In this document: piece after piece, positions 30,019 to 46,175 of the stretch
Layout of the letters: each line of letters begins with the position of its first letter
Position numbering within the stretch: position 1 is the stretch's first letter
Assembly (NCBI RefSeq): GCF_001556045.1
Contig: NZ_LSIC01000178.1
Location: 62,001 to 126,000 of the forward strand
Source: Bradyrhizobium sp. CCH5-F6
Lineage (GTDB): Bacteria > Pseudomonadota > Alphaproteobacteria > Rhizobiales > Xanthobacteraceae
Reading direction: 5' to 3'
DNA length: 64,000 nucleotides
Position numbers and translations under genes: made by a program
Notes under the pieces: model-generated
Seen by the model: only the letters and a program-made list of their open reading frames with translations
Told to the model about the DNA's origin: nothing
The model's database searches: none

Positions 30019-30483
30019 TCAGTGCGGAACGACGGCGGTGGCTTCGATCTCGACGCGCGCCGCCTTCTCCACCAGGCGAACCACCTGAACCAGCGCCATC
30101 GCAGGATAGTGCGCTCCGAAGAGTTCGCGGTAGACCCTGCCCAGCTCCTTCAGATTGGCCAGGTACTCGTCCATGTCGACGACGTACCAGGTCAGCCGCA
30201 CCAGGTGCTCGGGCCGGGCGCCGGCCTCGGCCAGGATCGCGGCGATGTTGTCCAGGGTTTGGCGTACCTGCGCGACGAAGCCTTCAGCGAGGCGCTCCTG
30301 GGCGTCCCAGCCGATCACCCCGCCTGTGACGACGATGCGCCCCTCGGCAGCCATGCCGTTGGCGTAGCCCTTCGGCACCGGCCAGCCCGATGGCTGCAGG
30401 ACCTGCGCCTTGATGCGCGCTCCGTCCTCGGCTGCCGTCGGCAGCACCGCGAGTTGCGGGCCTTTCGGCGTCGTCACAGACAA
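30019..30483 (-). CDS. RidA family protein (enamine/imine deaminase-like)
   Basis: 154-residue RidA/YjgF-type protein (RIVVTGGVIGWDAQERLAEG, LDNIAAILAEAGARPEHLVR, MALVQVVRLVEKAARVEIEA). RidA enzymes hydrolyse reactive enamines and imines to ketones and ammonia. The C-terminal arginine/glutamate region typical of the family is present. It starts at TTG 30483 behind GAAGGA (GTG 30477 is possible), 15 bp after the aminobenzoate-CoA ligase stop. In this cluster it could remove the amino group after ring reduction of aminobenzoyl-CoA, an attractive but unproven step. Confidence 0.85.
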   Translation of the reverse strand: MSVTTPKGPQLAVLPTAAEDGARIKAQVLQPSGWPVPKGYANGMAAEGRIVVTGGVIGWDAQERLAEGFVAQVRQTLDNIAAILAEAGARPEHLVRLTWYVVDMDEYLANLKELGRVYRELFGAHYPAMALVQVVRLVEKAARVEIEATAVVPH

Positions 30484-30498
30484 TTCTCTATCCTTCTC

Positions 30499-32190
30499 TC
30501 ATTCCGCAGCGACGCCTGAGGACGTTACCGCGACCTGCGCCAGCTGCCGCAGGGCGAAGCGCTTCAGCTTGCCGGTTTCGGTCTTCGGCAGTTGCGTCAC
30601 GAACTCGATCGCGCGCGGATATTTGTAAGGCGCTATCTCGCGCTTGACGTGCTCCTGCAGCTCCACAACGAGCTGCGCGTCCGCAGTCACGCCGGGCGCG
30701 GCGATGACATAGGCCTTAACTACCATGCCGCGCGCCTCGTCCGGCGCACCGACCACGCCGCACTCGGCGACAGCCGGATGCGTGAGCAGCGCCGCTTCGA
30801 CGTCGGTCCCTGCGATGTTGTAACCGGACGACACGATCATGTCGTCAGAGCGCGACTGGTACCAGAAATAGCCGTCGCTATCCATCAGATAGGTATCGCC
30901 GGTGATGTTCCATCCGTTCTGGACGTATTTCCGCTGCCGCTCGTCGGCCAGATAACGGCACCCGGTCGGCCCGCGCACGGCGAGCCGGCCCATCGTCCCG
31001 GGCGGCACGTCGCGGCCCTCATCGTCGACGATCTTGGCTTCATAGCCCGGCACGGGCTTCCCCGTCGCGCCCGGGTGGATCTCGTCCTCGGTCGCGCTGA
31101 TGAAGATGTGCAGCATCTCGGTCGAACCGATGCCGTCCATCAGCTTGATGCCGGTGGCCTTGAGCCAGGCATCGAATGTCGGCTTGGGCAGCGTCTCGCC
31201 CGCGGAGACGCATTTGCGTAGCGAGGAGATGTCGCGGCCCGGCAGCTTGCCGATCATGGCACGGTACGCGGTCGGCGCCGTGAAGCAGACCGTGGTCTTG
31301 TGCTGCTCGATCGCCGTGAGGATGTCATCGGGCGTGGTCTTCTCCAGCACGACGAAGGAGGCGCCGATATGCATCGGAAACAGCACCCCACCGAAGCCGA
31401 AGGTGAAGGCGAGCGGGGCCGAGCCGACGAAGCGATCCTTCTGCTCGGCGCGCAGGATGTTGCGCGCGTAGCCGTCGCAGACCGCGAGCATGTCGCGGTG
31501 GAAATGCATGGTGCCCTTGGGATCTCCCGTCGTGCCCGACGTGAATGCGATCAGGCAGACGTCGTCGGCGGCAGTATCGACGGCCTTGAACTCCGGGCTT
31601 GCGTCGGCAATCAGCGCTTCGAGCGAGTCGGCCGCGCCGTTGCCCCAATACACGACCCGCCCGAGATTGGACGCCCCGGCTTTCGCCTTTTCCATCTCCT
31701 CGGAAAGCTTTCCGTCGCAGAGCGCCAGCGTGATCTCCGCCTTCTGGATCGGATAGGATAGCTCCTTCGCGCGCAACAGCGGCATCGTCGCGACGCAGAT
31801 TCCGCCCGCCTTGATCACGGCGAGATAGGTCGCAACCATCATGGGGTTGTTGGCCGAGCGCAGCAGCACGCGCCCGCCGGTCACGAGACCGAGCTTGCCG
31901 ACCAACACATTGGCAATGCGATTCACCAGCGCTTGCAACTCGCGATAGGTGTAGCTGACGGCGGGGCTGATGACGCAAGGGGCGTCGCCGTGGCCCTCTT
32001 CGACCCAGCGATCGAGAAAATAGCTGACGCAGTTCAATCGCGACGGATAGTTCAGCTCCGGCCGCGTGAAGATGAAGTCGGGCCAGAGCTCGCGCGGCGG
32101 CAGGTTCTGCCGTGCGAACGTATCGACATGGGCCGTTGCGGCATCGCCGTCATGCGAGCCCGTCACTTGAATCTTGGCGGCGTTGGCCAT
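30499..32190 (-). CDS. abmG: 2-aminobenzoate--CoA ligase-like AMP-forming ligase
   Basis: 563-residue acyl-adenylate ligase of the benzoate-CoA ligase type. Core motifs are LIAFTSGTTGDPKGTMHFHR, the DGIGSTEMLHIFIS segment, NITGDTYLMDSDGYFWYQSR and the catalytic lysine motif LPKTETGKLKRFALRQ. The aromatic-ligase features and the neighbouring aminobenzoyl-CoA monooxygenase/reductase at 36151 point to anthranilate activation, though salicylate or benzoate cannot be excluded. An operator copy (32241-32254) sits 51 bp upstream of the start, so the MarR protein at 32338 should control it. Followed directly by a RidA gene. Lysine-acetylation control by the Pat-type protein at 20356 is possible. Confidence 0.82.
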   Translation of the reverse strand: MANAAKIQVTGSHDGDAATAHVDTFARQNLPPRELWPDFIFTRPELNYPSRLNCVSYFLDRWVEEGHGDAPCVISPAVSYTYRELQALVNRIANVLVGKLGLVTGGRVLLRSANNPMMVATYLAVIKAGGICVATMPLLRAKELSYPIQKAEITLALCDGKLSEEMEKAKAGASNLGRVVYWGNGAADSLEALIADASPEFKAVDTAADDVCLIAFTSGTTGDPKGTMHFHRDMLAVCDGYARNILRAEQKDRFVGSAPLAFTFGFGGVLFPMHIGASFVVLEKTTPDDILTAIEQHKTTVCFTAPTAYRAMIGKLPGRDISSLRKCVSAGETLPKPTFDAWLKATGIKLMDGIGSTEMLHIFISATEDEIHPGATGKPVPGYEAKIVDDEGRDVPPGTMGRLAVRGPTGCRYLADERQRKYVQNGWNITGDTYLMDSDGYFWYQSRSDDMIVSSGYNIAGTDVEAALLTHPAVAECGVVGAPDEARGMVVKAYVIAAPGVTADAQLVVELQEHVKREIAPYKYPRAIEFVTQLPKTETGKLKRFALRQLAQVAVTSSGVAAE

Positions 32191-32240
32191 CGCACGCTCC
32201 TTTCAGCATGGATTGCACCCGGCAGCACGATCTGGAAACA

Positions 32241-32254
32241 TTTTAGGCTTAAAA
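32241..32254. promoter_or_regulatory. MarR operator copy 1 (TTTTAGGCTTAAAA)
   Basis: AT-rich palindrome upstream of the aminobenzoate-CoA ligase gene. It is the exact reverse complement of the core of the 38531-38556 copy. Confidence 0.75.
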
Positions 32255-32337
32255 CAATTCGGCGCAATAGCCGATTTTGGGCATCATGTGCTTTTTCCTG
32301 CGGCAAGAGGGATCGGCGACCCGTCCCTGTGGCGGGC

Positions 32338-32868
32338 TTACGACCGGCGGCGCGCGGCCGATTTCTGCGCGGACGCCTTGGTCTTGGCCAGGAGGCGCAT
32401 CAGCTCGCGGACATCCTTCGGCGTCAGATCGGCGAAAAGATCGGCAATCCAGGTTTCGTGTTCCGCAGCCATTCGGCGAAACTCGGCGCGTCCGAGCTTC
32501 GTGAGGCGGATCACCTGGACGCGGCGGTCGGTCTCCGAGGTTCGCCGATCGAGATGACCGGAGTCCACGAGGCGCTCGACCAGGCCGGTCACGTTGCCGT
32601 TCGATACCATCATGCGCTTGGAGACATCCGACAGCGTCATGCCGTCAGGGGCCTTGTCGAGCTGCGCCATCAGATCGAAACGCGGCAAGGTGACGTCGAA
32701 GCGCTGCCGCAGCCGGCCGCGAACCTCGCCCTCGATCAGGGTCGTGCAGGTCAGGAGGCGTAGCCACAGCCGAAGCTCTTCGGCGTGGTCCTCCGGCGTT
32801 TCGACGGCCTTGGTCTCGGAATCGAGCATGTTGATGCAGCCACTCGCGGCCGGCATTGGCGCCGGCAC
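32338..32868 (-). CDS. MarR family transcriptional regulator of the aromatic-CoA cluster
   Basis: 176-residue winged-helix regulator (RFDVTLPRFDLMAQLDKAPD, MTLSDVSKRMMVSNGNVTGL with the HTH, and the wing SETDRRVQVIRLTKLGRAEF). The N-terminal 14 residues may be extra, because an in-frame ATG at MLDSETK is also plausible. It lies inside the cluster between the ligase and the binding-protein gene, flanked by three copies of the same palindrome (32241, 32882, 32951). MarR proteins of aminobenzoate clusters usually repress and are released by the aryl-CoA; ligand inferred, not shown. Confidence 0.88.
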   Translation of the reverse strand: MPAPMPAASGCINMLDSETKAVETPEDHAEELRLWLRLLTCTTLIEGEVRGRLRQRFDVTLPRFDLMAQLDKAPDGMTLSDVSKRMMVSNGNVTGLVERLVDSGHLDRRTSETDRRVQVIRLTKLGRAEFRRMAAEHETWIADLFADLTPKDVRELMRLLAKTKASAQKSAARRRS

Positions 32869-32881
32869 GGATTCCCCAACG

Positions 32882-32895
32882 TTTTGAGCTTCAAG
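32882..32895. promoter_or_regulatory. MarR operator copy 2 (TTTTGAGCTTCAAG)
   Basis: Diverged copy of the same palindrome, 13 bp upstream of the marR start, suited to autorepression. Confidence 0.55.
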
Positions 32896-32950
32896 TAAAT
32901 CGGAGCCGGCTGCAAGTCCAAAGCTGCAACAATCGACCGCACGACAATTT

Positions 32951-32964
32951 CTTTAGGCTTCAAA
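32951..32964. promoter_or_regulatory. MarR operator copy 3 (CTTTAGGCTTCAAA)
   Basis: Copy of the palindrome ahead of the substrate-binding protein gene at 33106. Confidence 0.65.
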
Positions 32965-33105
32965 TAATTGGCGCGCCGCTTGCATGCGCCGCCGTTCGCA
33001 GGATGCGACGCCTCGAGCTCAGCTTGCCGCGGCTGTCATCATCGGCATAATCTTGGATTGGAGTACGTGCTTGCAGCGCAAGCCGATCGTCACGAGGGAC
33101 AGATC

Positions 33106-34281
33106 ATGAAGACGCAAACGACCTTGGCCGCAGCCGCCGTGCTGCTCGGCACCGTGGTGACCCCTGCCCTCGCCCAGGACAAAATCAAGCTGGGCGTAAT
33201 CGTGACCCTGTCGGGACCTGCCGCCGCACTGGGCCAACAGGTTCGCGACGGCTTCACGCTGGCCGTAAAGGATCTCGGCAGCAAGATGGGCGGCCGCGAC
33301 GTCGAGGTCGTCGTCGTCGACGACGAGCTCAAGCCGGATGCGGCGGTGACCAAGGTCAAGGGCCTTCTGGAGCGCGAGAAGGTCGATTTCGTGGTCGGTC
33401 CGATTTTCTCCAACATCCTCCAGGCGATCCACCGGCCCGTCACTGAATCGAAGACCTTCCTGATCAGCCCGAATGCCGGTCCGTCGACCTTCGCCGGCAA
33501 GGACTGCAACCCGTTCTTCTATGTGACGTCCTATCAGAACGATCAGGTGCACGAGATCCTCGGCAAGGTCGCGCAGGATCGTGGCTACAAGCGCATGTAC
33601 CTGATGGTCCCGAACTATCAAGCGGGCAAGGATTCCGTGGCGGGCTTCAAGCTCGACTACAAGGGCGAGATCGTCGAGGAATCCTACATGCCGCTGAACA
33701 CGCTGGACTTCCAGCCGGAGCTTTCCAAGATTTCCTCGCAGAAGCCGGATGCGCTGTTCACGTTCATGCCGGGCGGCCTCGGCGTCAATCTCGTCAAGCA
33801 GTACCGGCAGGCCGGCCTTGCGGACACCATTCCGGTGCTGTCGGCATTTACGGTGGACGAATCGACGCTGCCGGCGCAACAGGATGCGGCCGTCGGCATG
33901 TTCGGTGGCGCGAACTGGGCGCCAAATCTCGACAACCCGCAGAACAAGAAGTTCGTTGCGGCCTATGAAGCGGCTTACAACAGCGTTCCCGGCACCTACG
34001 CATTCCAGGCTTATGACGCCGCGATGCTGATCGACAGCGCCGTCAAGGCCTTGAAGGGCGACCTCTCCAAGAAGGAGGCAGTCGCCGCCGCGCTGAAGAA
34101 AGCCGACTTCACCTCGCTGCGCGGCTCCTTCAAGTTCAACACCAACGGCTATCCGATCCAGGATTTCTACCTGACCAAGGTCGCCAAGCGTCCGGACGGC
34201 AAGTTCCAGACCGAGATCGTACAGAAGGTCTTCGAGAATTACGGCGACCGCTATGCCAAGGATTGCAAGGCGGCGAATTAA
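33106..34281 (+). CDS. ABC transporter substrate-binding protein (LivJ-type, aromatic-acid cluster)
   Basis: 391-residue periplasmic type I receptor. A signal peptide (residues 1-22, LAAAAVLLGTVVTPALA) leads into IKLGVIVTLSGPAAALGQQV, the Leu/Ile/Val-binding family start. The rest follows the family (VDFVVGPIFSNILQAIHRPV, YAFQAYDAAMLIDSAVKALK). ATG 33106 has GAGGGAC upstream. No permease or ATPase gene is in the cluster, so it must use a transporter encoded elsewhere or act as a sensor. The upstream MarR operator suggests induction with the catabolic genes; the ligand is probably the aromatic acid. Confidence 0.87.
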   Translation: MKTQTTLAAAAVLLGTVVTPALAQDKIKLGVIVTLSGPAAALGQQVRDGFTLAVKDLGSKMGGRDVEVVVVDDELKPDAAVTKVKGLLEREKVDFVVGPIFSNILQAIHRPVTESKTFLISPNAGPSTFAGKDCNPFFYVTSYQNDQVHEILGKVAQDRGYKRMYLMVPNYQAGKDSVAGFKLDYKGEIVEESYMPLNTLDFQPELSKISSQKPDALFTFMPGGLGVNLVKQYRQAGLADTIPVLSAFTVDESTLPAQQDAAVGMFGGANWAPNLDNPQNKKFVAAYEAAYNSVPGTYAFQAYDAAMLIDSAVKALKGDLSKKEAVAAALKKADFTSLRGSFKFNTNGYPIQDFYLTKVAKRPDGKFQTEIVQKVFENYGDRYAKDCKAAN

Positions 34282-34310
34282 GCTGCGTATCGCGTTACGG
34301 GAGGACTGCA

Positions 34311-34769
34311 ATGAAGAGCGAAATCACCGGCATCACCCGGGCGAACGAGGGCATCCAGGGCATCTCCTGGAACATCCTCGGCCAGACCTATGTGCCAAAG
34401 AGCTACGCCGAACACAGCTTCTCCTGGCATGCGACACTGCCGCCAGGCACGTTCGTGCCGCCGCACATTCATCCCGATCAGGATGAGTATCTCTACATGC
34501 TCGAGGGCAAGCTCGACTTCATGCTCGGCGATTCGGAGTCGCAGGCCAGCGCCGGCGACCTGATCCGCCTCGGCATGGGCGTCCCTCACGGCATCTTCAA
34601 CAAGTCGGAGCAGACCGCAAAAGTGCTGTTCTGGGTCTCTCCGAGCCGCAAGCTGTTCGACCTGTTCTGGGGCCTTCACAACATGAAGGAGCAGAAGCCG
34701 GAAGACGTGGTGACGATGGCCGCCGAGTTCAACATCCACTTCCTGCCGCCGCCTCCCGGTGGCGGCTAA
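34311..34769 (+). CDS. Cupin domain protein
   Basis: 152-residue single cupin. Metal-binding motif 1 reads PPHIHPDQDEYLYMLEGKLD and motif 2 GDLIRLGMGVPHGIFNK. ATG 34311 follows GGGAGG. It lies 29 bp after the binding-protein gene and is probably in the same operon. Cupins in aromatic clusters can be ring-cleaving dioxygenases or small isomerases; here only the fold is clear. A hairpin at 34805 separates it from the convergent monooxygenase gene. Confidence 0.85.
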   Translation: MKSEITGITRANEGIQGISWNILGQTYVPKSYAEHSFSWHATLPPGTFVPPHIHPDQDEYLYMLEGKLDFMLGDSESQASAGDLIRLGMGVPHGIFNKSEQTAKVLFWVSPSRKLFDLFWGLHNMKEQKPEDVVTMAAEFNIHFLPPPPGGG

Positions 34770-34848: not shown

Positions 34849-36099
34849 TCAGGCGCGTACCGCCGCAAGTCCCGGGACCGCTGCGAAGCCGGCCTTGGTG
34901 GCGTAGCCACGCACGATCGCCTCGCGCTGGGAATAGCTCAGGACGTTGTCGACATTATCGAAACCGTCGGGCGCAAGCTGCTCGACGGCATCGATGACGC
35001 CCTCAGGGCCGCCGCGCCGATTTGAGCGGACGATCTCTGCCGTCATAGGCAGGCGCTTCGTCTCATACTCGCGCAGCGCCTGGCGTGGATGCTCGGCGCG
35101 CACCAGCGCATCCGCAAGACAGCGCGCGTCGAGGATCGCCTGTGAGGCGCCGTTCGAGCCGACTGGATACATGGGATGCGCGGCATCGCCGAGCAGCGTG
35201 ACGCGCCCGGACGACCAATAGGGCAAGGGATCGCGGTCGCAGGTCGGATACTCGTAGAATTCGGGCGTGGCCGAGATCAGGCTCTTGACGTCGATATACG
35301 GCACGGAGAAGCGCGCCACATGCGGCATCAGCTCTTCGCGCCGCCCCGGCCGCGACCAGTCTTCCCTCCTCGGCGGCGGTGCATTGCCCTCGCCCACTTT
35401 GACCAGCACCGCCCAATTGGTGAGGCGGCTTGCCGGGCTCGATCCTTCCGCGATCGGATAGATCACCACCTTGGCATTGAGACCGCCGGCCACGATCATC
35501 GATTTCCCGGTCAGGAACAGCGGCCAGTCGCGGGCGCCGCGCCACAGCATCAAGCCGTTCCAGCACGGCGGCCCTTCGTTCGGGAACAGCGTCTCGCGGA
35601 CGCGCGAGTGGATGCCGTCGGCGCCGATCAGGATATCGCCACGCGCGGTGTGGACGTGCGCGCCTGCGCGATCGAAGAAGTAGGCGGTGACTCCGCCCTC
35701 ATCCTGCGTGAAGGCGCCAAGCCGGCACCCGGTGTGAATTGCGTCCGGCCCGAGCCGCTCCTCGACCGCACGATGGATGACGCCCTGAAGGCGCCCACGA
35801 TGGATCGAGAATTGCGGCACGTCGTGACCGGCGTCGATGCCGCGGGCCTCGTGCCAGACCTCCTGGCCATGGCGGTTGAGGTAGTAAAGCTGATCGGTAC
35901 GGATCGCGACGTCGTCGAGCCGCTGCAACAGGCCGAGCCCGGCCAACTCGCGCATCGCATGCGGCAACGTGTTGATGCCGACGCCAAGCTCGCGAATGGT
36001 GTCGGCTTGCTCGAAAATCTCGCAGTCCAGGCCCCGCGAGCGGAACATCAATGCCGTGGTGAGACCACCGATACCGCCACCGACGATAATCGCCTTCAT
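34849..36099 (-). CDS. Flavin-dependent monooxygenase (group A, PhzS-like)
   Basis: 416-residue FAD hydroxylase. FAD-binding motif VGGGIGGLTTALMF is at the N-terminus, the RELGVGINTLPHAMRELAGL segment is typical of PhzS/salicylate-hydroxylase-like enzymes, and the second FAD motif is RVTLLGDAAHPMYPVGSNGA. It uses NAD(P)H and O2 to hydroxylate an aromatic acid. It lies 51 bp downstream of the aminobenzoyl-CoA monooxygenase/reductase and shares its operator. It might hydroxylate a side substrate or a free acid, for example 3-hydroxybenzoate; the true substrate is unknown. Confidence 0.85.
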   Translation of the reverse strand: MKAIIVGGGIGGLTTALMFRSRGLDCEIFEQADTIRELGVGINTLPHAMRELAGLGLLQRLDDVAIRTDQLYYLNRHGQEVWHEARGIDAGHDVPQFSIHRGRLQGVIHRAVEERLGPDAIHTGCRLGAFTQDEGGVTAYFFDRAGAHVHTARGDILIGADGIHSRVRETLFPNEGPPCWNGLMLWRGARDWPLFLTGKSMIVAGGLNAKVVIYPIAEGSSPASRLTNWAVLVKVGEGNAPPPRREDWSRPGRREELMPHVARFSVPYIDVKSLISATPEFYEYPTCDRDPLPYWSSGRVTLLGDAAHPMYPVGSNGASQAILDARCLADALVRAEHPRQALREYETKRLPMTAEIVRSNRRGGPEGVIDAVEQLAPDGFDNVDNVLSYSQREAIVRGYATKAGFAAVPGLAAVRA

Positions 36100-36150: not shown

Positions 36151-38502
36151 TCACTCCGCCGCAAGCGGCTTTGTCGCCTCCGCCTTGAGCTCGGCGCGGG
36201 TCTTGGGCTTAGCCTTAATTCTCAGCTCCTCCAGATCCTGCCGGTCGCGCACGCTGTTGCGGAAAATCTGATCTTTTCCCGGAAGATATTGGGGTGGGCA
36301 GAATGCATCGTTGGCCCCGTACCAGGCCGCCGCCTTCATGGTGAAGAAGGGATCGACGAGATGCGGACGGCCGAGCGCGACGAGATCCGCCCTGCCGGCG
36401 GCCAAAATGGTGTTGGCCTGGTCCGCCGTGGTGATGTTGCCGACGCACATGGTGGCCACGCGCGCCTCGTTGCGGACCTGATCGGAGAACGGGGTCTGGA
36501 ACATGCGCCCGTAAACCGGCTGCGCATCGCGCACGGTCTGGCCGGTTGAGACATCGACGAGATCGACACCCGCCTCGGCGAAGGCCCGCGCAATGGCAAC
36601 GGCATCATCGCCGGTGATGCCACCGTCAGCCCAGTCGGTTGCGGAGATGCGCACCGACATCGGCTTGTACGACGGCCACGCCGCGCGCAGCGCCTCGAAC
36701 ACCTCGAGCGGGAAACGCAGGCGATTCTCAAGAGAACCGCCATAATCGTCGGTGCGGGTGTTCGTCAGCGGGGAGATGAAGCTCGCGAGCAGGTAGCCGT
36801 GGGCGCAGTGCAGCTCCAACATGTCGAAGCCGCAGCGTTCGCCGCGCTCTGCCGCCGCAACGAAAGCGTCTCTCACCGCAACCATCCCCGCGCGATCGAG
36901 TTCGCGGGGCACCTGACTGTCGGGGAAATAGGGTAGCGGCGATGCCGAAACGGTTTCCCAGCCCCCTTCGTCCAGCGGCCGGTCAATGCCGTCCCACATC
37001 AGCTTGGTCGCGCCCTTGCGGCCGGCGTGGCCCAGTTGCAGGCAAATCTTCGCGGCTGAATTGCCGTGGACGAAATCCACGATGCGGCGCCAGGCAGCCT
37101 CCTGCTCGTCGTTCCACAGGCCGGCGCAGCCGGGCGTGATCCGGGCATCGCGGCTGACGCAGGTCATCTCGGTGAAGATCAGCCCGGCCCCGCCGATCGC
37201 GCGTGATCCGTAGTGCACGAGGTGAAAATCCGTCGGCACGCCTTCCTTCGCCGAATACATGCACATCGGCGACATCACCGCGCGATTGGCGAGCTCCATC
37301 TCACGCAAGCGGAACGGCTGGAATAGCGGCACCATCGGCCGATCGGTGTCGACATCGAAGCCACTGCCGCGCACCTGCCTTGCAAACGACTTTTCGACCT
37401 CCGCCACGAAATCCGGGGCGCGAAGTTTCAGATTGTCGTAGGTGATCGCCTTCGAGCGCGTCATGACGCCGAATGCGAACTGCACGGGATCGAAGTCCCA
37501 GAAGCGGTCGACGTGCTCGAACCAGACCAGCGAGACGTCGGCGGCATGCTGCGTCTTCTCGACCTCTTCGCGGCGGCCGTTCTCGTAGACCTCCAGCGCC
37601 GCCCCGATGCTGGGCGCCTTCTCCATGGCTTCGGCAAGCGCGATCGCGTCCTCCATCGCGAGCTTGGTACCCGAGCCGATCGAGAAATGCGCGCTCGCCT
37701 TCGCGTCGCCGAGCAGGACCATGTTGTCCTTGACCCAGCGCTTGCTGCGGATCATCGGGAAATTGCGCCACATCGAGCGGTTGGTCAGCAATCGATGCTC
37801 ACCAAGGAACCAGCCGAAGATGTCAGCCATCCGCGCGGCGGACTGGGCTTCGTCGAGCCCCGTCAGCCCGGCCCGCTCGAACGTCTCCGGATCGGTCTCG
37901 AAGATCCAGGTCGAATGCCCGGCCTCATACTGATAGGCATGGGCGATGAACGGTCCCCACTCGGTTTCCTGGAAGATGAAAGTGAAGGCATCGAGCGGCC
38001 TGGTCGAGCCCATCCAGGCGAACTTGTTGGAGCGGATGTCGACCTCCGGCTGGAAATGGTCGACGTACTTCTCGCGGAAGCGGCTGTTGATGCCGTCGGA
38101 GATCAGGACGAGATCGGCATCGGCGAAGCGGGACTCGTCGTCGATATCCACTTCGAAGTGCAAGACGACGCCGAGCTCGCGGGCGCGCTCCTGAAGGATC
38201 AAGAGCAGCTTGCGTCGCGAGCAGCCGCAAAAGCCGTTTCCGCCGACGCGATGCACCGTGCCGCGAAAGTGCACGGCGATGTCATCCCAGTAGGCGAACT
38301 CCTGGGTGATGCGACGGTAGCTCGGAAGATCGTGCTTCTCGAAATTATCGAGCGTCGCGTCCGAGAACACCACGCCGAAGCCGAAGGTGTCGTCGGCCCG
38401 ATTGCGCTCGTACACCGTAATGTCGGCGGCCGGGCGCTGCTTCTTGAGCAGGATCGCAGCATAGAGACCCGCAGGTCCGCCACCGATGATCGCGACTTTC
38501 AT
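36151..38502 (-). CDS. abmA: Anthraniloyl-CoA (or salicylyl-CoA) monooxygenase/reductase, bifunctional
   Basis: 783-residue fusion. Residues 1 to about 380 are a group A flavin monooxygenase ([37 protein letters not shown]). Residues about 385-783 are an Old Yellow Enzyme-type reductase ([57 protein letters not shown]). This exact architecture and length is that of 2-aminobenzoyl-CoA monooxygenase/reductase, which hydroxylates and reduces the ring of anthraniloyl-CoA, bypassing Rieske dioxygenation. Databases often call it salicylyl-CoA 5-hydroxylase/oxidoreductase. A perfect MarR palindrome (38531-38556) is just upstream. Key enzyme of the cluster. Confidence 0.9.
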
Positions 38503-38530: not shown

Positions 38531-38556
38531 AAACTATTTTAAGCCTAAAATAGTTT
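38531..38556. promoter_or_regulatory. MarR operator copy 4 (11-bp arms, strongest copy)
   Basis: AAACTATTTTA, spacer AGCC, TAAAATAGTTT: an exact 11-bp inverted repeat starting 29 bp upstream of the monooxygenase/reductase gene, overlapping where its promoter should lie. The core TTTTAAGCCTAAAA matches copy 1 in reverse. Confidence 0.85.
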
Positions 38557-38602: not shown

Positions 38603-39439
38603 CTAGTCGCCCCTGAAGACCGGCTTGACCTTGTTGGCAAAAGCCTCGAAGGCGCGCTCGAAATCCGCCGTCGTCATGCACAGCGCTTGGGCAACGGCCT
38701 CCGCTTCGATCGCCTCCTCCACCGACATCGCCCATTCCATGGCCAGCATCCGCTTGGTCATGGTGTTGGCGAAGGTCGGTCCTTCCGCAATCTGCTTCGC
38801 CAGAACTTGGGCCTGAGGCAGCACCTGCTCCGGCGTGACGATGCGGCTGAAGAAGCCCCAGCGCTCGCCCTCTTCCGCGGTCATGAACCGGCCGGTGTAG
38901 AGCAGCTCGGAGGCGCGGGACTGCCCGATGATACGCGGCAGGATCGCGCAAGCGCCCATGTCGCAGCCGGCCAGCCCCACCTTGTTGAACAGGAACGCCA
39001 CCTTGGCCCCGCTCGCAGCAAGGCGCATGTCGGAGGCCATGGCGATAATCGCCCCGGCCCCGGCACAGATACCCTCGACCGCGGCCACGATCGGCTGAGG
39101 GCATGCCCGCATCGCCTTGACGAGGTCGCCGGTCATGCGCGTGAAGGCGGTCAGCCCCTTGGTGTCCATCTTCACGAGAGGCCCGATGATCTCGAACACG
39201 TCGCCGCCAGACGAGAAATTGCCGCCGGCACCGGTGACGACGATGACCTTGACCGCGTCGTCAAAGGCGCAGGCACGGAAAAAATCGGTCAGCTCACGGT
39301 AGCTTTCGAACGTCAGCGGATTCTTTCGTTCGGGCCTGTTGAGCGTGACTGTCGCGACACCGTCGACCACAGCCAGCAGGAAGTGCTGCGGCGAGTAATC
39401 TGCAAGCGGCAAGGTAACGGGATTGGCGGGTCTGCTCAT
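38603..39439 (-). CDS. Enoyl-CoA hydratase of the aromatic cluster
   Basis: 278-residue crotonase-fold enzyme ([58 protein letters not shown]). It likely hydrates a ring-derived unsaturated CoA ester or helps ring opening after the monooxygenase/reductase step. It sits between the SDR and the monooxygenase genes on the minus strand, 45 bp from the SDR, and shares the SDR promoter operator (40288). Its Ser/Gly-rich oxyanion loop is slightly unlike that of the 4530 paralogue, fitting a different substrate. Confidence 0.85.
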
Positions 39440-39484: not shown

Positions 39485-40246
39485 CTAGACCTCGCCCCCA
39501 GCCACGGCAATCGCCTGGCCGGTGATTGCGCTCGCGCCCTCACCGCACAGCCAGAGAACCGCGTCTGCCACTTCCTGCGGCGTGATCAGGCGTCCTTGCG
39601 GATTGTGTTTCGCGAGCTCTGCGACCGCCTGCTCGCGGCTACGCCCCGTCTTCTTCATGATGTTCTCGATGCTGCCTGCGACGAGATCGGTGTCGGTGAA
39701 GCCGGGACACACCGCATTCACGGTCACGTTGCTTCCGGCCATCTCGAGGGCGAGAGAACGTACGAGCCCGACCACCGCGTGTTTGGCTGCGACGTACGCG
39801 CTGACATAGGCGTAGCCCTTGAGCCCGGCCGTGGACGCGACCGCGACAATACGACCATAGGGGCGGGTCTTCATCCCCGGCAGGACAGCCTGGACGGCAT
39901 GCACGACGCCCATGAAATTGACATCCATCATGCGCGTGAAAAGGGCGGTATCCGATTTCGCAAACGGCGCCGATTCAGCGCTGCCTGCATTGGCAATCAG
40001 AATGTCGATCGCCTTGCGCGCACTCGCTCCGGCAATGGCGGCTTTCAGAGACGCTTCGTTCGAGACGTCGGCGACAGCCGCAAAGTGCGCCGCACCTGCA
40101 CTGACTGCCTCTTCGAGAACCGCCGCATTTCGGCCAAGCACGGTTACGGTCGCGCCAGCGCCGACGAGAGAAGCAGCTATCTCACGACCGATGCCGCGAC
40201 CGCCGCCGGTCACCAGCGCGTGCAGCGAGTGCGGCAACCCGGACAT
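39485..40246 (-). CDS. SDR family dehydrogenase of the aromatic cluster
   Basis: 253-residue short-chain dehydrogenase: ALVTGGGRGIGREIAASL, NAGSAESAPF, VAVASTAGLKGYAYVSAYVA with Tyr-xxx-Lys (YVAAKHAV), and the GQAIAVAGGEV end. ATG 40246 is preceded by GGGAG; longer open frame upstream to 40345 runs through the operator and promoter and is not coding. Likely oxidises a 3-hydroxyacyl-CoA or a cyclic alcohol intermediate. A MarR operator copy is 42 bp upstream. Confidence 0.87.
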   Translation of the reverse strand: MSGLPHSLHALVTGGGRGIGREIAASLVGAGATVTVLGRNAAVLEEAVSAGAAHFAAVADVSNEASLKAAIAGASARKAIDILIANAGSAESAPFAKSDTALFTRMMDVNFMGVVHAVQAVLPGMKTRPYGRIVAVASTAGLKGYAYVSAYVAAKHAVVGLVRSLALEMAGSNVTVNAVCPGFTDTDLVAGSIENIMKKTGRSREQAVAELAKHNPQGRLITPQEVADAVLWLCGEGASAITGQAIAVAGGEV

Positions 40247-40287
40247 GCGCTGACTCCCTCGGATCTTGTGATCGTTCTTGCAATATA

Positions 40288-40301
40288 TTTTAACCTTCAA
40301 A
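40288..40301. promoter_or_regulatory. MarR operator copy 5 (TTTTAACCTTCAAA)
   Basis: Copy of the palindrome upstream of the SDR/enoyl-CoA hydratase genes, in the divergent gap. Confidence 0.65.
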
Positions 40302-40364
40302 TTTTTGCAACGAAAGCGCGATCGTCTCTCGGAGTGCCGCCGCACAGAAGCGGCCCGGAAATTG

Positions 40365-40378
40365 CTTTAAGTATAAAA
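40365..40378. promoter_or_regulatory. MarR operator copy 6 (CTTTAAGTATAAAA)
   Basis: Copy of the palindrome 62 bp before the alpha/beta hydrolase start, serving the plus-strand operon 40440-46175. Confidence 0.65.
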
Positions 40379-40439
40379 TTATCTCTTCCCATCCCCCACA
40401 GGCCTGTTAGCATCAAGAGGCCAAGCAAAAGGATGTCGC

Positions 40440-41255
40440 GTGTCGCAGCCTGCGCCAATGATAACAAAGGACGGACGCTTCGCCTATGAATCCTCGGGTG
40501 ATCCGGGCGCAGTACCCCTGATTTTCCTGCATGGCATTGGCGGCGCGGCGCGGGCGTGGCGGCGGCAGCTTGCCACATTCGGCGACCGCTTCCGCGCGAT
40601 CGCATGGGACATGCCGGGCTATGGCGGATCGACGCCGCTCGCGAGCGTCAGCATTGCAGCCTTGGCCGATGCGCTTCAGCAATTCATCGAGCAGCTTGGT
40701 GCGGCCAAGCCTATTCTGGTCGGCCATTCCATTGGCGGCATGATCGTCCAGAAGTGGCTGGCGCAGTCCCCCACACTGGCGCGTGCGGTCGTGCTGGCAC
40801 AGACCAGCCCTGCCTTCGGGAAGGCCGACGGCGAGTGGCAGAAATCATTCATCGCGGCACGGCTCGGGCCCCTCGATCGCGGGGAGACGATGAAGTCGCT
40901 GGCGCCAGCGCTGGTGAATGAGCTGGTCGGCGATGATCCAGATCCGAACGGGATGGAGCTGGCGCGCGAATGCATGGGGAGCGTGCCCGAGGCAAGCTAT
41001 CGCGCCATGATGCTGGCTCTCATCGGCTTCGATCAGCGCAGCACGCTTGGAAATATCTCCGTCCCCACGCTGCTGCTGTCCGGCTCCAAGGACAACAATG
41101 CGCCTGCGCCGATGATGGCAAAGACGGCGACCTACATCCCCGGGGCGGAATATGTCGAGCTCGCCGGCGTGGGGCATCTCGCCAACCTCGAGCGCCCCGG
41201 TGCCTTCGACGAAGCTCTCGGCCGCTTCCTGAACTCCGTTACGAGCAAAGCGTGA
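40440..41255 (+). CDS. Alpha/beta hydrolase of the aromatic cluster
   Basis: 271-residue hydrolase with nucleophile elbow VGHSIGGMIVQKW (Ser), oxyanion HGIGGAARAW, acid residue region SGSKDNNAPAPM and catalytic His in VELAGVGHLANLERP. Such enzymes in aromatic-CoA clusters serve as ring-product hydrolases or thioesterases. GTG 40440 follows AAGG; ATG 40458 is an alternative. It is the first gene of a plus-strand operon with acyl-CoA dehydrogenase, ligase and two dehydrogenases. Confidence 0.85.
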   Translation: MSQPAPMITKDGRFAYESSGDPGAVPLIFLHGIGGAARAWRRQLATFGDRFRAIAWDMPGYGGSTPLASVSIAALADALQQFIEQLGAAKPILVGHSIGGMIVQKWLAQSPTLARAVVLAQTSPAFGKADGEWQKSFIAARLGPLDRGETMKSLAPALVNELVGDDPDPNGMELARECMGSVPEASYRAMMLALIGFDQRSTLGNISVPTLLLSGSKDNNAPAPMMAKTATYIPGAEYVELAGVGHLANLERPGAFDEALGRFLNSVTSKA

Positions 41256-41267: not shown

Positions 41268-42557
41268 ATGACCATGCAAGTCAGCAAGACTATCAGCGCA
41301 ACCGACAAGGTCGTGCTCGATGCGCCGATCTTCGATCCCGCCGCGTTCCGCCTGAGCGACGAGCAGGCCGGCATCATTGCGCGCGCCCGCGAGATCGGCC
41401 AGAGCGTGTTCGCCGGTCGCGCCGCGACCTACGATCGCGAGGCGATCTTCCCGACCGAAAACTATCGCGATCTGCATCGCGTCGGCCTGCTCGGCATCGC
41501 CGTCCCCAAGAAGCACGGTGGTCTCGGCGCAAATTACCAGACCTATGCATTGGCGGCAGCCGAGATCGGCCGCTATTGCGGCGCGACTGCGCTGACCTGG
41601 AACATGCATGTGTGCTCGACCCTATGGTCGGGCCCGCTGGCCGACGATCTCGACATGGATGAGCAGACGCGCGCCGAGCACGAGCGGCGGCGCGCCGTTC
41701 ACTACAAGCGCATTGTCGAGGACGGCGCGATCTACTCGCAACCCTTCTCCGAAGGTGGTGCGGCGGCTGCGGGCGGCGTTGCTTTCGGAACGGAGGCAAA
41801 GCCGGTTGCGGGGGGCTGGATCGTCAACGGCAAGAAAATATTCGCCTCGCTCTCCGGCCACGCCGACTATTACGGCGTGCTTTGCACCGAGATCGAGCAG
41901 GGCGAGAAGGCATCGCGACGCAACACGCTCTATCTGGCCATCCCCGCCAAGTCGGAAGGGGTCTCGGTCGTCGGCGATTGGGATCCGCTCGGCATGCGCG
42001 GCACGGTCTCGCGGACGCTCCTGTTCAAGGACGTGTTCGTGCCGGAGGATTCCGCGCTGATGCCGCGCGGCGTCTATTTCCAGGCTGCGATGCGCTGGCC
42101 GCACATGTTCCTGACGCTGTCGCCGACCTATATGGGCCTCGCGCAAGCCGCCTATGACTTCACCGTGCGCTACCTTCGGGGCGAGGTGCCCGGCATGCCG
42201 CCGGTCAAGCGGCGGATGTATCCGACCAAGCAGATCGCCGTCGCGCAGATGCAGATCAAGCTGGAGCAGATCAAGGGTATCTGGTTCCAGGCCGTCACCG
42301 AAGCCTGCGCAAATCCGAGCAAGGAGCAGGTGCTCCGAGCCTATGCCGCACAATATTCGGTGATGGAGGGCGCCAATGAGCTTGCCGCGCTCGCGATCCG
42401 AACCTGCGGCGGTCAGGCCATGCTCCGGTCGCTGCCACTGGAGCGGATCTACCGCGACAGCCGCTGCGGCTCGCTGATGCTGCCCTGGACCGCGGAGCTC
42501 TGCCTCGACCGGATCGGACGCGAAGCGCTGTACGAGGCTGGTGAAACGGACGAGTGA
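41268..42557 (+). CDS. Acyl-CoA dehydrogenase
   Basis: 429-residue acyl-CoA dehydrogenase-family flavoprotein (HRVGLLGIAVPKKHGGLGAN, YSQPFSEGGAAAAGGVAFGT, GDWDPLGMRGTVSRTLLF, YSVMEGANELAALAIRTCGG). It fits a dehydrogenation step in beta-oxidation of the ring-derived CoA ester. It lies 12 bp after the hydrolase and overlaps the next ligase by 4 bases. Similarity to two-component monooxygenases of this fold cannot be fully excluded, but no flavin reductase is in this operon. Confidence 0.87.
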   Translation: MTMQVSKTISATDKVVLDAPIFDPAAFRLSDEQAGIIARAREIGQSVFAGRAATYDREAIFPTENYRDLHRVGLLGIAVPKKHGGLGANYQTYALAAAEIGRYCGATALTWNMHVCSTLWSGPLADDLDMDEQTRAEHERRRAVHYKRIVEDGAIYSQPFSEGGAAAAGGVAFGTEAKPVAGGWIVNGKKIFASLSGHADYYGVLCTEIEQGEKASRRNTLYLAIPAKSEGVSVVGDWDPLGMRGTVSRTLLFKDVFVPEDSALMPRGVYFQAAMRWPHMFLTLSPTYMGLAQAAYDFTVRYLRGEVPGMPPVKRRMYPTKQIAVAQMQIKLEQIKGIWFQAVTEACANPSKEQVLRAYAAQYSVMEGANELAALAIRTCGGQAMLRSLPLERIYRDSRCGSLMLPWTAELCLDRIGREALYEAGETDE

Positions 42558-44095
42558 CCGTGGATCTCTGCAGTCTGATCGATCGCAACGCGGCGTTCGC
42601 GCCAGATAAGACAGCCATCGCCTTCGAAGGGAATCGGCTGAGCTACGCGGCGTTCGCCGCACGCATCGAGCGAACCGCGACCGCCCTGAAGCGGGAGTTC
42701 GGCATCGGCCGCGGCGACCGTGTCGCGATCCTGAGCCTGAACCGGCCGGACTATCTGGTTCTGCTATACGCCTGCGCGCGGCTCGGGGCGATGCTGGTAC
42801 CGCTGAACTGGCGGCTGGCGGTGGCCGAGCAGTTGTTCATTCTCAACGATGCAGGCGCCAAGGTCCTGGTGCTCGAGCAGGCTTTCGGGGGAGTTATTCC
42901 CGAACTGGCGCAGACCGCGCCAGGGGTATCTGTCGTCGGCCTCGATTTCGAGCCGCCACGTGGGGTGACATTCGAAGCGCTGCTGGATCGCAGCCAGGGC
43001 AGCGACCGCAACCAGCACACCGATCTCTCCTGCCCTCTCCTGATCGTCTACACGTCAGGAACGACGGGACGACCAAAAGGCGCAGTGCTGCGTCAGGAGG
43101 CGTTGTTCTGGAACGGCGTCATGAGCCAGCACATGCACAACATGACGTCCGACGATCACGTGCTGACGATTTTGCCGTTCTTTCATGTCGGCGGTCTCAA
43201 CATCCAGACCACGCCTGCGCTCCAGCTCGGCGCAACCGTCACGATCCACGCCCGTTTCACGCCGGATACCGCGCTTGCGGCCATCGAACGGGAGCGACCG
43301 ACTCTGACCGTGATGGTGCCGGCGGTCATTCAGGCCGTAAGCGAGCATCCCGCATGGACGACGACCGATCTCTCATCACTCAAGGCAGTGGCAACCGGTT
43401 CGACCATCGTGCCGCCGCAACTGATCCAGCGTTTCGTCGCACGCGGCGTACCCGTGCTTCAGGTCTATGGCTCGACGGAAACCTGTCCCATTGCCGTCTA
43501 TACTCGGCTCGGGGGCGACCTCTCGCGAGCGGGGTCGACCGGCCTTGCCGGCCTGTGCTGCGAAGCCAAGGTAGTCGATCATTCCGGCAACGAACTGCCC
43601 GCGGGCACGCCGGGCGAGATCGCGGTGCGCGGGCCCAACGTGTTCTTCGAATATTGGGGCAATGAGGCCGCAACGCGCGACGCGCTGCACGATGGCTGGT
43701 ATCGCACCGGCGATATCGGCCTGTGCGATACCGACGGCTATTTCTGGGTCCGCGACCGCAAGAAGAACATGATCATATCCGGCGGGGAGAACGTCTACCC
43801 GGCCGAGGTCGAGCGCGTTCTGCTCGAACATCCCGATGTCAGCGAATGCGCCGTGATCGGCCGGCCCGACCCGCGCTGGGACGAGGTGCCGGTCGCCTAT
43901 GTCATTGCGAGATCCGGCTGCCAACTCGGAACGGACGAATTGAGGGCGCATCTCCAGGCGCAACTCGCGCGCTACAAGGTTCCGCGCGAGATTGTCTTCG
44001 TTACCGATCTGCCGCGGACGGCGCTCGGCAAGGTCCAGCATTTCCTGCTGAAGCAGCTTGATGCGCAGTCACGCGGGCAAGGAGAAGCGCCTTGA
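42554..44095 (+). CDS. AMP-forming acyl-CoA ligase
   Basis: 513-residue ligase: LIVYTSGTTGRPKGAVLRQE, QVYGSTETCPIAVYTRLGG, WYRTGDIGLCDTDGYFWVRD, DRKKNMIISGGENVYPAEVE and LPRTALGKVQHFLLKQ with the catalytic lysine. It looks like a medium/long-chain or aromatic acyl-CoA synthetase rather than a benzoate-CoA ligase. GTG 42554 overlaps the acyl-CoA dehydrogenase stop. It may re-activate a ring-cleavage acid or serve a second substrate. Confidence 0.88.
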   Translation: MTVDLCSLIDRNAAFAPDKTAIAFEGNRLSYAAFAARIERTATALKREFGIGRGDRVAILSLNRPDYLVLLYACARLGAMLVPLNWRLAVAEQLFILNDAGAKVLVLEQAFGGVIPELAQTAPGVSVVGLDFEPPRGVTFEALLDRSQGSDRNQHTDLSCPLLIVYTSGTTGRPKGAVLRQEALFWNGVMSQHMHNMTSDDHVLTILPFFHVGGLNIQTTPALQLGATVTIHARFTPDTALAAIERERPTLTVMVPAVIQAVSEHPAWTTTDLSSLKAVATGSTIVPPQLIQRFVARGVPVLQVYGSTETCPIAVYTRLGGDLSRAGSTGLAGLCCEAKVVDHSGNELPAGTPGEIAVRGPNVFFEYWGNEAATRDALHDGWYRTGDIGLCDTDGYFWVRDRKKNMIISGGENVYPAEVERVLLEHPDVSECAVIGRPDPRWDEVPVAYVIARSGCQLGTDELRAHLQAQLARYKVPREIVFVTDLPRTALGKVQHFLLKQLDAQSRGQGEAP

Positions 44096-45186
44096 AAATT
44101 GCGGTTCTGGGTGGAGGAAACGGCTCTTTCGCGGCCGCGGGCGATTTTGCGCTGTCGGGGCACGAGGTGCGGCTTTGGCGCCGCGATGCCGATCAGGTCG
44201 CGGCCCAGCGCACCGCCGGCTCACGCATCGTGGTGAAGGACCATAATGGGTCTCACGACGTGAAGCTCGCGCTCGTCACGACCGATATCGCCGAAGCCGT
44301 CAAAGGCACGGAGCTGATCCTGTGCCCCGCCCCTGCCTTCGCGCAACCGGATATCGCCCGCCTGCTCGCCCCGCATCTGCGAGACGGCCAGGTCGTGTTT
44401 CTGCCGCCGGCGACATTCGGCTCGATGATCTTCGCCCAAGCCGCCCGTGATGCCGGCAACAATGCCAAGGCAAGCTTTGCCGAGACCGGCACCCTGCCTT
44501 GGCTGACGCGAAAGCACGGGCCGTTAGAGGTCGCCATCACCATCCGTGCCAAACGCCTGCCGGTCGGGGTGTTCCCGCTTGATCAGGCGCCCCACGCTCT
44601 CGAAGTGATCGGACGCGCTTTCCCGGGCGTGATCGAGCCGTGCGGGGATGCGCTGTCCGGCGCGCTGATGAATGCAGGACCCATCATCCATCCGCCGCTG
44701 ATCGTGATGAATGCCGGCCCGATCGAGCACTTCGAAAAGTGGGACATCCACAAGGAAGGCACGCAAGCCGCGATCCGGCGGGTGACCGACGCGCTCGATG
44801 CCGAGCGGATCGCGGTGCGCGAGGCGCTCGGTTACGGCGCACCACATTTCCCGCTCGCTCATCACTACGCGAGAGAAGGCGAGATCTGGATGTACGGCCG
44901 CGGCTCGCACGACCGGCTGACCGATTCCGGCGACTGGCGCGAACGGATCGTGCTGAGCGAACACCGCTACATGCGGGAGGATCTGCGGCTCGGGCTGTCG
45001 CTGCTGGTGTCCGTCGCAGGCCTGGCTGGCGCGGCCACACCGCTGGCCAAAGCGTTTCTGTCGATCGGTGGCGCGGTCTGCGGCGAAGATTTTGCGCAAG
45101 GCGGCCGAACGCTCGAGACGCTGGGCCTCGGCAATCTCAGCAAGGCTGAACTGCAGACGCTGCTTCGCAATGGATTCTGTCGATGA
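44092..45186 (+). CDS. NAD/NADP octopine/nopaline dehydrogenase family protein
   Basis: 364-residue protein with Rossmann motif VLGGGNGSFAAAGDFALSGH and a C-terminal octopine-dehydrogenase domain (GAPHFPLAHHYAREGEIWMY). The family makes or splits opine-type secondary amines (amino acid plus oxoacid). Starts at TTG 44092 behind GGAGAAG and overlaps the ligase stop. Its place among CoA-ester enzymes is unusual; it could handle an amino- or oxo-acid product of aminobenzoate breakdown. Confidence 0.83.
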   Translation: MKIAVLGGGNGSFAAAGDFALSGHEVRLWRRDADQVAAQRTAGSRIVVKDHNGSHDVKLALVTTDIAEAVKGTELILCPAPAFAQPDIARLLAPHLRDGQVVFLPPATFGSMIFAQAARDAGNNAKASFAETGTLPWLTRKHGPLEVAITIRAKRLPVGVFPLDQAPHALEVIGRAFPGVIEPCGDALSGALMNAGPIIHPPLIVMNAGPIEHFEKWDIHKEGTQAAIRRVTDALDAERIAVREALGYGAPHFPLAHHYAREGEIWMYGRGSHDRLTDSGDWRERIVLSEHRYMREDLRLGLSLLVSVAGLAGAATPLAKAFLSIGGAVCGEDFAQGGRTLETLGLGNLSKAELQTLLRNGFCR

Positions 45187-46175
45187 CCAAACGCGTCCAC
45201 ATCGTCTGTCTCGGCGCCGGCCGCATGGGGCGCGGCATCGCCGTCGCGTTCGCCTATGCCGGCCACATGGTCACGATGATCGACGTCAAGCCGCGCTCCG
45301 CGGAGGAGTTCGCCAGGCTGGAAGCGGACGCGCTCGGCGAGGTCAGGAAGACCTTTGCCAGCCTGTCGAAGCTGGGGCTCTTGACCGAGGCGGATGTCGA
45401 TCCGCTCATCGCGCGGGTCTCGGTGGTGGCAGCCGGCGATAGTGGTGCCGCGCTCTCCGAGGCCGGCATGGTCTTCGAGGGCGTGCCCGAGGTCGTCGAG
45501 CTCAAGCGCGAGGTGCTGGGGGCAGCGTCAAGGCAGGTTGGCCCGGACACCGTCATTGCTTCGACGACGTCGACGATCCTGGTCGACGACCTGTCCAGCG
45601 CGATCCTGAATCCTCGTCGCTTCCTCAACGTGCATTGGCTCAACCCGGCCTATCTGATCCCGCTGGTCGAGGTGTCGCCCGGCAAGGCCACCGATCCCGC
45701 CATCATCGGCGAGGTCAAGGCGCTGCTCGAAGGCATCGGCAAGGTCCCGGTGGTCTGCGCGGCGACGCCGGGCTTCATCGTCCCGCGCATCCAGGCGCTG
45801 GCGATGAACGAGGCCGCCCGCATGGTTGAAGAAGGCGTCGCCAGTGCGGAAGACATCGACAAGGCGATCCGTTATGGCTTCGGCTTCCGCTACGCCGTGC
45901 TCGGCCTGCTCGAATTCATCGACTGGGGCGGCGGCGACATCCTGTACTATGCAAGCCGCTATCTCGAAGGCGCACTCGGGAGCGACCGCTATCGCGCGCC
46001 GGAAGTGATTTCGCGCAACATGAGCGAGGGACGAATCGGCTTGCGGACGGGTGCCGGCTTCCTCGACTATTCCGGCCTCGACGTCGATGCCTATCGAGTC
46101 GAGCGGCTCAAGGCCATGGTGGACCTGCTCCGCCACTTTGGCTTGGCACGGCCGCCCGTGCGCGATCTCGGCTAG
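45183..46175 (+). CDS. 3-hydroxyacyl-CoA dehydrogenase family protein
   Basis: 330-residue enzyme with LGAGRMGRGIAVAFAYAGHM, the catalytic-His region HWLNPAYLIPLVEVSPG, PGFIVPRIQALAMNEAARMV and IDKAIRYGFGFRYAVLGLLE. It would oxidise a 3-hydroxyacyl-CoA in the lower part of the aromatic pathway. It overlaps the opine-DH gene by 4 bases and ends the plus-strand operon, facing the NicX-like gene from the other side. Confidence 0.9.
   Translation: MTKRVHIVCLGAGRMGRGIAVAFAYAGHMVTMIDVKPRSAEEFARLEADALGEVRKTFASLSKLGLLTEADVDPLIARVSVVAAGDSGAALSEAGMVFEGVPEVVELKREVLGAASRQVGPDTVIASTTSTILVDDLSSAILNPRRFLNVHWLNPAYLIPLVEVSPGKATDPAIIGEVKALLEGIGKVPVVCAATPGFIVPRIQALAMNEAARMVEEGVASAEDIDKAIRYGFGFRYAVLGLLEFIDWGGGDILYYASRYLEGALGSDRYRAPEVISRNMSEGRIGLRTGAGFLDYSGLDVDAYRVERLKAMVDLLRHFGLARPPVRDLG

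Follow-up and report, generated by a model that had tools for sequence, protein, structure and literature searches.

Gene content of the locus

The window analysed here is a 64,000-nucleotide stretch of Bradyrhizobium sp. CCH5-F6 (contig NZ_LSIC01000178.1). We examined a 16-kb region of it (30019-46175) in which six copies of an AT-rich palindrome accompany a single MarR-family regulator gene, and in which that MarR likely controls the genes around it. A sequence-only reading had called the region an aromatic-CoA cluster. This description was borne out and can be refined: the region is probably an aerobic 2-aminobenzoyl-CoA (anthranilate, abm-type) catabolic cluster of a Bradyrhizobium-like genome, its substrate being deduced from the enzymes that it encodes.

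Two enzymes expected of an abm-type cluster are present above family cut-offs. The first is a bifunctional FAD monooxygenase/OYE-like reductase of the 2-aminobenzoyl-CoA monooxygenase/reductase type (ACMR; 36151-38502, minus strand), which scores 1135.2 bits against PRK08255 (cut-off 1078). Its residues 1-352 match solved monooxygenases and residues 391-742 match solved OYE-type reductases. The second is an aryl-CoA ligase (30499-32190, minus strand), a probable 2-aminobenzoate-CoA ligase for which this specificity is a candidate one, with 392.9 bits against the benzoate-CoA ligase family TIGR02262 (cut-off 375.25). The ligase gene is followed in its unit by a gene for a RidA-family enamine/imine deaminase (30019-30483, minus strand; Pfam Ribonuc_L-PSP, below the NCBIfam RidA cut-offs), and the ACMR gene by one for an FAD monooxygenase (FMO; 34849-36099, minus strand; subfamily PRK07538, 578.2 bits, cut-off 400).

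Between these two units lie the MarR gene (32338-32868, minus strand; Pfam MarR_2/MarR), starting at GTG 32868 or ATG 32856, and, divergent from it, the plus-strand genes for a branched-chain-amino-acid-type ABC substrate-binding protein (SBP; 33106-34281; Peripla_BP_6) and a cupin-domain protein (34311-34769; Cupin_2), both with putative starts. Beyond the ACMR gene, an SDR oxidoreductase gene (39485-40246, minus strand) precedes one of the enoyl-CoA hydratase family (ECH; 38603-39439, minus strand; PRK08258, 470.7 bits, cut-off 330). The SDR reading frame as listed starts at GTG 40345, upstream of the palindrome at 40288, and hence overlaps it; matches to SDR families start at residues 42-44 of this longer frame, and ATG 40246, 49 bp from the centre of the palindrome, appears the likelier start. 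A plus-strand operon completes the cluster, with genes for an alpha/beta hydrolase (ABH; 40440-41255; PcaD-like, below cut-off), an acyl-CoA dehydrogenase family protein (ACAD; 41268-42557; below equivalog cut-offs), a second acyl-CoA ligase (ACL2; 42554-44095; PRK06187, 492.2 bits, cut-off 476), an octopine/nopaline-dehydrogenase-like protein (ODH; 44092-45186; Octopine_DH) and a 3-hydroxyacyl-CoA dehydrogenase (HAD; 45183-46175; PRK08269, 533.4 bits, cut-off 427).

The abm pathway of Azoarcus evansii, as far as the accessible parts of its description go, likewise combines a bifunctional monooxygenase/reductase, a CoA ligase and beta-oxidation-like genes (PMC3534580, PMC8879955). Compared with shorter abm-type clusters, the one studied here has the SBP, cupin and FMO genes and the hydrolase-to-HAD operon in addition. 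In a family search of the 14 cluster genes, MarR was the only regulator found among them, in agreement with the sequence-only reading. In a plasmid collection the cluster region matched one record, at 77% identity over 11% of the query.

Six copies of one palindrome precede the transcription units

All six positions at which a recurring core had been proposed (32241, 32882, 32951, 38531, 40288 and 40365) are occupied by a site fitting a single 26-bp palindrome with the consensus CAATTATTTTAAGCTTAAAATAATTG and the half-site CAATTATTTTAAG. The literal core TTTTARGCYTAAAA recurs less strictly than had been claimed: it is exact at two places in the window (32241 and 38537), while the other four copies carry two (32951 and 40288) or three (32882 and 40365) mismatches. 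Allowing up to three mismatches, the window holds seven matches, the six of the cluster and one at 14751, against 0.53 expected; none of 100 shuffles reached seven.

The six sites, which we read as operators, fall one to each of the inferred transcription units, as the claim of one copy per promoter had it. Operator 1 (32235-32260; 37.5 bits, exact 14-mer core) precedes ligase-RidA, its centre 58 bp from the ATG. Operator 2 (32876-32901) precedes the MarR gene, with its centre 21 bp from the GTG and 33 bp from the ATG; it has three core mismatches and, at 23.8 bits, the lowest score of the six. Operator 3 (32945-32970; 41.7 bits) lies in the same divergent region and precedes SBP-cupin. Operator 4 (38531-38556; 38.7 bits) precedes ACMR-FMO, centred 42 bp from the ATG, and its 11-bp arms are perfect, as had been noted, with a 4-bp spacer between them. 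A second divergent region holds operator 5 (40282-40307; 34.1 bits), before SDR-ECH, and operator 6 (40359-40384; 36.5 bits), before the hydrolase operon. Across the six units the centre of the nearest site is 21-148 bp from the start codon.

The contrast in base composition is as described, with 15-38% GC in the sites against 60-64% in their 200-bp flanks and 64% in the window. The scores of 23.8-41.7 bits come from a matrix trained on relatives together with these same sites. In 100 simulated 64-kb order-2 Markov sequences no hit reached 15 bits; intergenic DNA of AT-rich composition is not represented in these simulations, and for that reason the controls given below, with shuffled promoters and with internal genes, carry more weight.

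The palindrome is conserved at first genes and nearly absent from internal genes

Conservation upstream of orthologous genes had been set beforehand as the test that could refute the proposal, and the palindrome is conserved in near and distant loci alike. The near set consisted of 80 MarR-anchored loci, mostly from Bradyrhizobium but also from Tardiphaga and Microvirga (loci and genomes are designated L and G below); the MarR of Bradyrhizobium forestalis (L001) is 98% identical to that of the window. About 250 bp upstream of each orthologue were scanned with a matrix built from the six window sites, a site being a score above the 99th percentile of shuffles, and orthologues were left out if they shared less than 45% identity, if the hit began after residue 40 or if less than 150 bp of upstream sequence was available. 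Sites were found upstream of the first genes ligase (97% of 78), MarR (95% of 80), SBP (77/77), ACMR (97% of 62), ABH (98% of 42) and SDR (60% of 65). Upstream of RidA (76 genes), cupin (74), FMO (72), ECH (67), ACAD (41) and ACL2 (36) the frequency was 0-1%, and ODH and HAD gave 1/9 and 0/3. These percentages are not independent of one another, since the divergent pairs share a region (SBP with MarR, ABH with SDR) and the genomes are closely related. The sites also follow the operons when gene order changes: in the rearranged Microvirga loci L078 and L079, sites stand at the ligase and ACMR promoters but not directly before MarR, which is there an operon-internal gene. Two of 18 loci examined (L035 and L036) had no match at up to two mismatches.

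For a wider sample, genomes were searched with PRK08255, which exceeded its cut-off in 110 of 397 genomes of the order and 64 of 398 of the phylum. The distant set comprised 60 stretches of at most 20 kb, hand-picked from the PRK08255 places listed, and short loci returned by searches. It was scanned with a matrix of 207 sites from the window and the first 80 loci (MarR-anchored, mostly Bradyrhizobium); ACMR genes with at least 75% identity, a start after residue 30, less than 120 bp upstream or less than 400 bits were left out, as were duplicates. This left 83 ACMR genes of 47-75% identity, all from loci not used to train the matrix, and 73 of these had a p<=0.01 site no more than 150 bp upstream. 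In the same loci, operon-internal genes yielded one site in 226 at p<=0.01 and none at 15 bits, other first genes 11 in 94, and genes divergent from ACMR 10 in 18.

The MarR subfamily accompanies the pathway and covaries with the operator

The protein has the MarR winged-helix domain and, as is usual for the family, palindromic sites stand in the promoters of its presumptive targets, including its own; these are the predicted operators. Its AlphaFold2 model has a predicted local distance difference test score (pLDDT) of 86.4, and we took helix 90-102 as the recognition helix. A near-invariant V(S/T)xGN(V/I/L)T marks the start of this helix in a 19-sequence alignment. The protein exceeded the cut-off of none of the 14 named MarR equivalogs listed in NCBIfam (including BilQ, FabT and HpaR), the best being BilQ with 49.9 bits against 125.

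The subfamily co-occurs with the pathway. In ten pathway genomes no close MarR lies nearer to ACMR than about 10 kb (nine of these stretches showed no MarR orthologue, and G191 only one of 29% identity), and all ten encode a subfamily member elsewhere, at 185-224 bits, in some cases on the same contig and merely 11-36 kb distant. No member of the subfamily turned up in 12 genomes of the order that lack a listed ACMR, taken from the 20 listed of 181 (0/12; best score 68.7 bits).

Operator and recognition helix also vary together. Covariation was counted on aligned columns for 49 MarRs below 85% identity, drawn from 113 loci with a site of at least 8 bits, a MarR of at least 110 residues without stops and an ACMR of at least 600 residues. 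Where residues 89-90 are SN, 48 of 60 half-sites have T at position 6; where they are TG, 2 of 18 do. By mutual information with average product correction (APC), the six columns ranking highest for position 6 were V97, S80, R99, S89, T110 and N90, all of which the predicted model places in the winged helix (helices 79-86 and 90-102; strand 106-110). In Mantel tests over the 113 loci, the operator tracks MarR (partial correlation 0.397) more than ACMR (0.245). Taken together, the co-occurrence and the covariation support the proposed role of MarR as regulator of the cluster.

Promoter architecture and a proposed mechanism

We aligned the ACMR promoters with a site of at least 15 bits. A TTG lies 7-8 bp before the operator in 70 of 128, and in the close group a TAAAAT in the right arm of the operator follows the TTG-bearing hexamer at 16-17 bp. 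We infer that, in close relatives, the hexamer is the -35 element and TAAAAT a -10 element inside the operator. Scanned for plain consensus matches, the window shows sigma-70-like promoters over operators 3 and 5 only.

We consider it likely that the MarR at 32338-32868 is a dedicated autorepressor that binds the 26-bp palindromes and is released by a CoA thioester of the pathway; the sequences show the sites, where they lie and how far they are conserved, the co-occurrence and the covariation, and binding, repression, substrate and effector are deduced. MarR would bind the palindrome before each transcription unit, its own included, and would then cover the spacer and the -10 element. A protein bound over the -10 element would block RNA polymerase, suggesting repression, and the site before the MarR gene itself suggests autorepression. 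Build-up of a CoA thioester would release the protein, the candidates being 2-aminobenzoyl-CoA and the ring-reduced 2-amino-5-oxocyclohex-1-ene-carbonyl-CoA. An effector of this class is suggested by analogy with CouR and BadR.

Several results, together with the family name and the second paralogue considered below, weigh against this reading. Ten of the 83 distant ACMR genes have no site at p<=0.01 within 150 bp, six of which (L122, L125, L133, L092, L097 and L202) have one of at least 23 bits farther upstream. The TTG is clear in 55 promoters (ACMR at least 80% identical), faint in the next 12 and absent from the consensus of 61 (below 60%). When a 16-bp pattern was scanned over both strands of ten genomes, 69 matches at up to two mismatches compared with 64 for the reversed pattern used as control, a count that by itself indicates no enrichment. 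Uncorrected mutual information ranks R52 and Q118 high as well, and R52 is outside the DNA-binding part. The TG-type MarRs may form one clade, which leaves the covariation supportive but not conclusive, and in the distant subset of 63 loci the partial correlations were 0.142 for MarR and 0.129 for ACMR. The restriction of the -35 pattern to close relatives and a genome-wide count not above its control led us to lower slightly our confidence in the autorepressor and to raise slightly that in a purely promoter-based explanation.

The alternative that survives best concerns the inducer: MarR may bind the sites and respond to anthranilate or salicylate as the free acid. Small aromatic acids can be ligands of MarR proteins, and the fold lists include solved relatives with bound salicylate, benzoate or indole-3-acetate; in the portions of the literature available to us, however, the MarRs of other CoA pathways (CouR, FerC and BadR) respond to CoA thioesters. 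We regard a free-acid inducer as possible but clearly the less probable choice. A second alternative concerns the substrate, which would be salicylate, degraded via salicylyl-CoA. NCBIfam names PRK08255 a bifunctional salicylyl-CoA 5-hydroxylase/oxidoreductase, in line with that route. Against it, a RidA deaminase gene accompanies the ligase gene and the OYE-like reductase half suits the 2-aminobenzoyl-CoA monooxygenase/reductase type, and we consider it improbable.

The third alternative involves a paralogue, MarR2, which is 41-49% identical to the MarRs compared. In some Bradyrhizobium relatives it stands next to ACMR or acyl-CoA dehydrogenase genes and has an almost identical operator (L081, L082, L101, L103 and L151); the sites beside it in L081, L082, L103 and L151 score 40-44 bits. 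G001, G003 and G009 encode both MarRs (MarR2 at about 210 bits), and in G001 and G003 the second adjoins the distal acyl-CoA dehydrogenase site. Cross-regulation is therefore possible, and the claim of a single regulator, true of the cluster genes in the window, is not universal among relatives. Shared or dominant control by MarR2 nevertheless seems, by a small further step, less probable still than the salicylate route: 9 of 14 genomes (G002, G007, G008, G010, G045, G153, G263, G280 and G397) encode just one MarR scoring more than 100 bits and keep the cluster operators. Finally, that the palindrome is no operator but merely AT-rich promoter sequence, a -10 with spacer common to the units, as its overlap with the putative -10 behind the conserved TTG of close relatives and the promoters predicted over operators 3 and 5 might suggest, is very improbable given its two-fold symmetry over up to 26 bp, the almost complete lack of it upstream of internal genes, its uneven occurrence at other first genes, its covariation with the MarR recognition helix and its co-occurrence with that MarR.

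Relation to known regulators

An autorepressor released by a CoA thioester is a mechanism of a familiar kind. CouR of Rhodococcus jostii RHA1, according to the parts of its literature consulted, is a MarR repressor of p-hydroxycinnamate catabolism released by p-coumaroyl-CoA. Its box, given there as cATTGA-5bp-TCAATg, differs from the consensus and half-site found here, and the sites do not fit it. BadR of Rhodopseudomonas palustris, a MarR regulator of anaerobic benzoate degradation, appears in a review table with 2-ketocyclohexane-1-carboxyl-CoA as effector. It resembles the present MarR in regulating an aromatic-CoA pathway, and its listed effector resembles the ring-reduced intermediate expected here. 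However, the benzoate pathway is anaerobic, and the likeness drawn here is one of pathway and effector. IadR and IacR are likewise MarR proteins of plant-associated bacteria but, as partially accessible accounts have it, bind indole-3-acetate and belong to an upper pathway, and they are distant in sequence (7kfo, 30 bits; 7kua, 30.6 bits). The nearest solved relative is 3boq, a MarR-family protein of Silicibacter pomeroyi, with 77 bits by single sequence and 124.7 bits by profile, below the 185 bits or more of the pathway-linked MarRs (same profile, other database).

The regulon itself is not described in the literature searched, which covered few subscription papers: for the aerobic 2-aminobenzoyl-CoA pathway we found there neither an operator nor a regulator of the MarR type. 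The analysis provides a widespread anthranilate pathway with a candidate regulator, a candidate operator and testable target genes. In B. japonicum USDA110 the iad route leads from indole-3-acetate to anthranilate, according to the part of the source consulted (PMC9613470), and the proposed switch may thus set the further use of that anthranilate.

Distal sites and growth of the regulon

At up to one mismatch, the scan of ten genomes gave 22 distinct places, of which 15 are in clusters, 5 at distal pathway-like genes (dehydrogenase or LIV) and 2 elsewhere. Distal sites recur upstream of an acyl-CoA dehydrogenase gene in G001, G002, G003 and G010. Two further Bradyrhizobium genomes score 23-25 bits at sites close to a flavin-monooxygenase-like acyl-CoA dehydrogenase gene (L084:4936 and L085:4977); L086 has no site of 16 bits.

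A distal operator of Bradyrhizobium sp. DOA9 (G002) precedes the permease genes of a leucine-isoleucine-valine (LIV) transporter. The roughly 100 bp that contain it share 88% identity with the ligase promoter of the same genome and have flanks that are conserved in relatives; the 101-bp copy occupies L218:1231-1331 (G002:C1:1717962 on) and occurs also in L244 and L245. Among the matches listed from a search of 265 genomes of the genus, three contain the whole junction (G002 at 100%, G892 at 96% and G920 at 86%), and in all three the operator stands before livH. Each of the other matches listed comprises one side of the junction, the left (about 1-101) or the right (most from 98-117, two from 81 and 93), and the two sides lie in separate places. 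No operator of 20 bits was found in 27 other LIV loci fetched, in 26 of which livH was visible. We read the DOA9-type junction, present in three assemblies, as promoter capture, which would offer a case, open to checking, in which duplication of about 100 bp added a transporter operon to a regulon. General membership of the LIV transporter in the regulon was rejected: a livH orthologue is present in 14 of 14 genomes and an operator in the fetched flank in 2. A 33-bit operator also precedes livH in G010 (L228:1395), in a context unlike the DOA9 insertion, so LIV genes may have entered the regulon on more than one occasion.

Eleven Bradyrhizobium loci (L059, L062, L063, L065, L066 and L068-L073) encode an ACMR that is 52-53% identical to that of the window, with FMO, SBP and MarR at 80-87%. 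In L059, L063, L072 and L073 the ACMR shares 75% identity with the MarR2-type enzyme of L151 and the MarR 81-87% with that of L014, and operators are retained in the three of these type-2 loci examined (L059, L063 and L072). The enzyme genes of the eleven loci look as if they had been exchanged for a type-2 ACMR module, with MarR, SBP, cupin and FMO staying in place.

A broader and more tentative proposal, which we think has a lesser chance of being right than of being wrong, is that MarR and palindrome form an old portable 2-aminobenzoyl-CoA module across the sampled phylum, whose enzymes have been exchanged, whose regulon has grown by the copying of promoter fragments and whose MarR would sense a dearomatised CoA product, as the effector listed for BadR in the benzoate pathway suggests by analogy.

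Other features of the window

Downstream of the cluster, an open frame at 46177-47256 ends the neighbouring ABC/IlvD operon; it has no Pfam match, and a longer version of the frame has no NCBIfam match. A weaker operator-like site (52577-52602; 20.4 bits) is flanked by genes for an NMT1-like SBP and a 3-hydroxyisobutyrate-dehydrogenase-like protein. This site is conserved in relatives, yet at most 7 of its 13 arm positions pair. Its counterparts score 17.3 bits in L236 and L240, 13.3 bits at the best place in L242 and 7.0 bits in L241.

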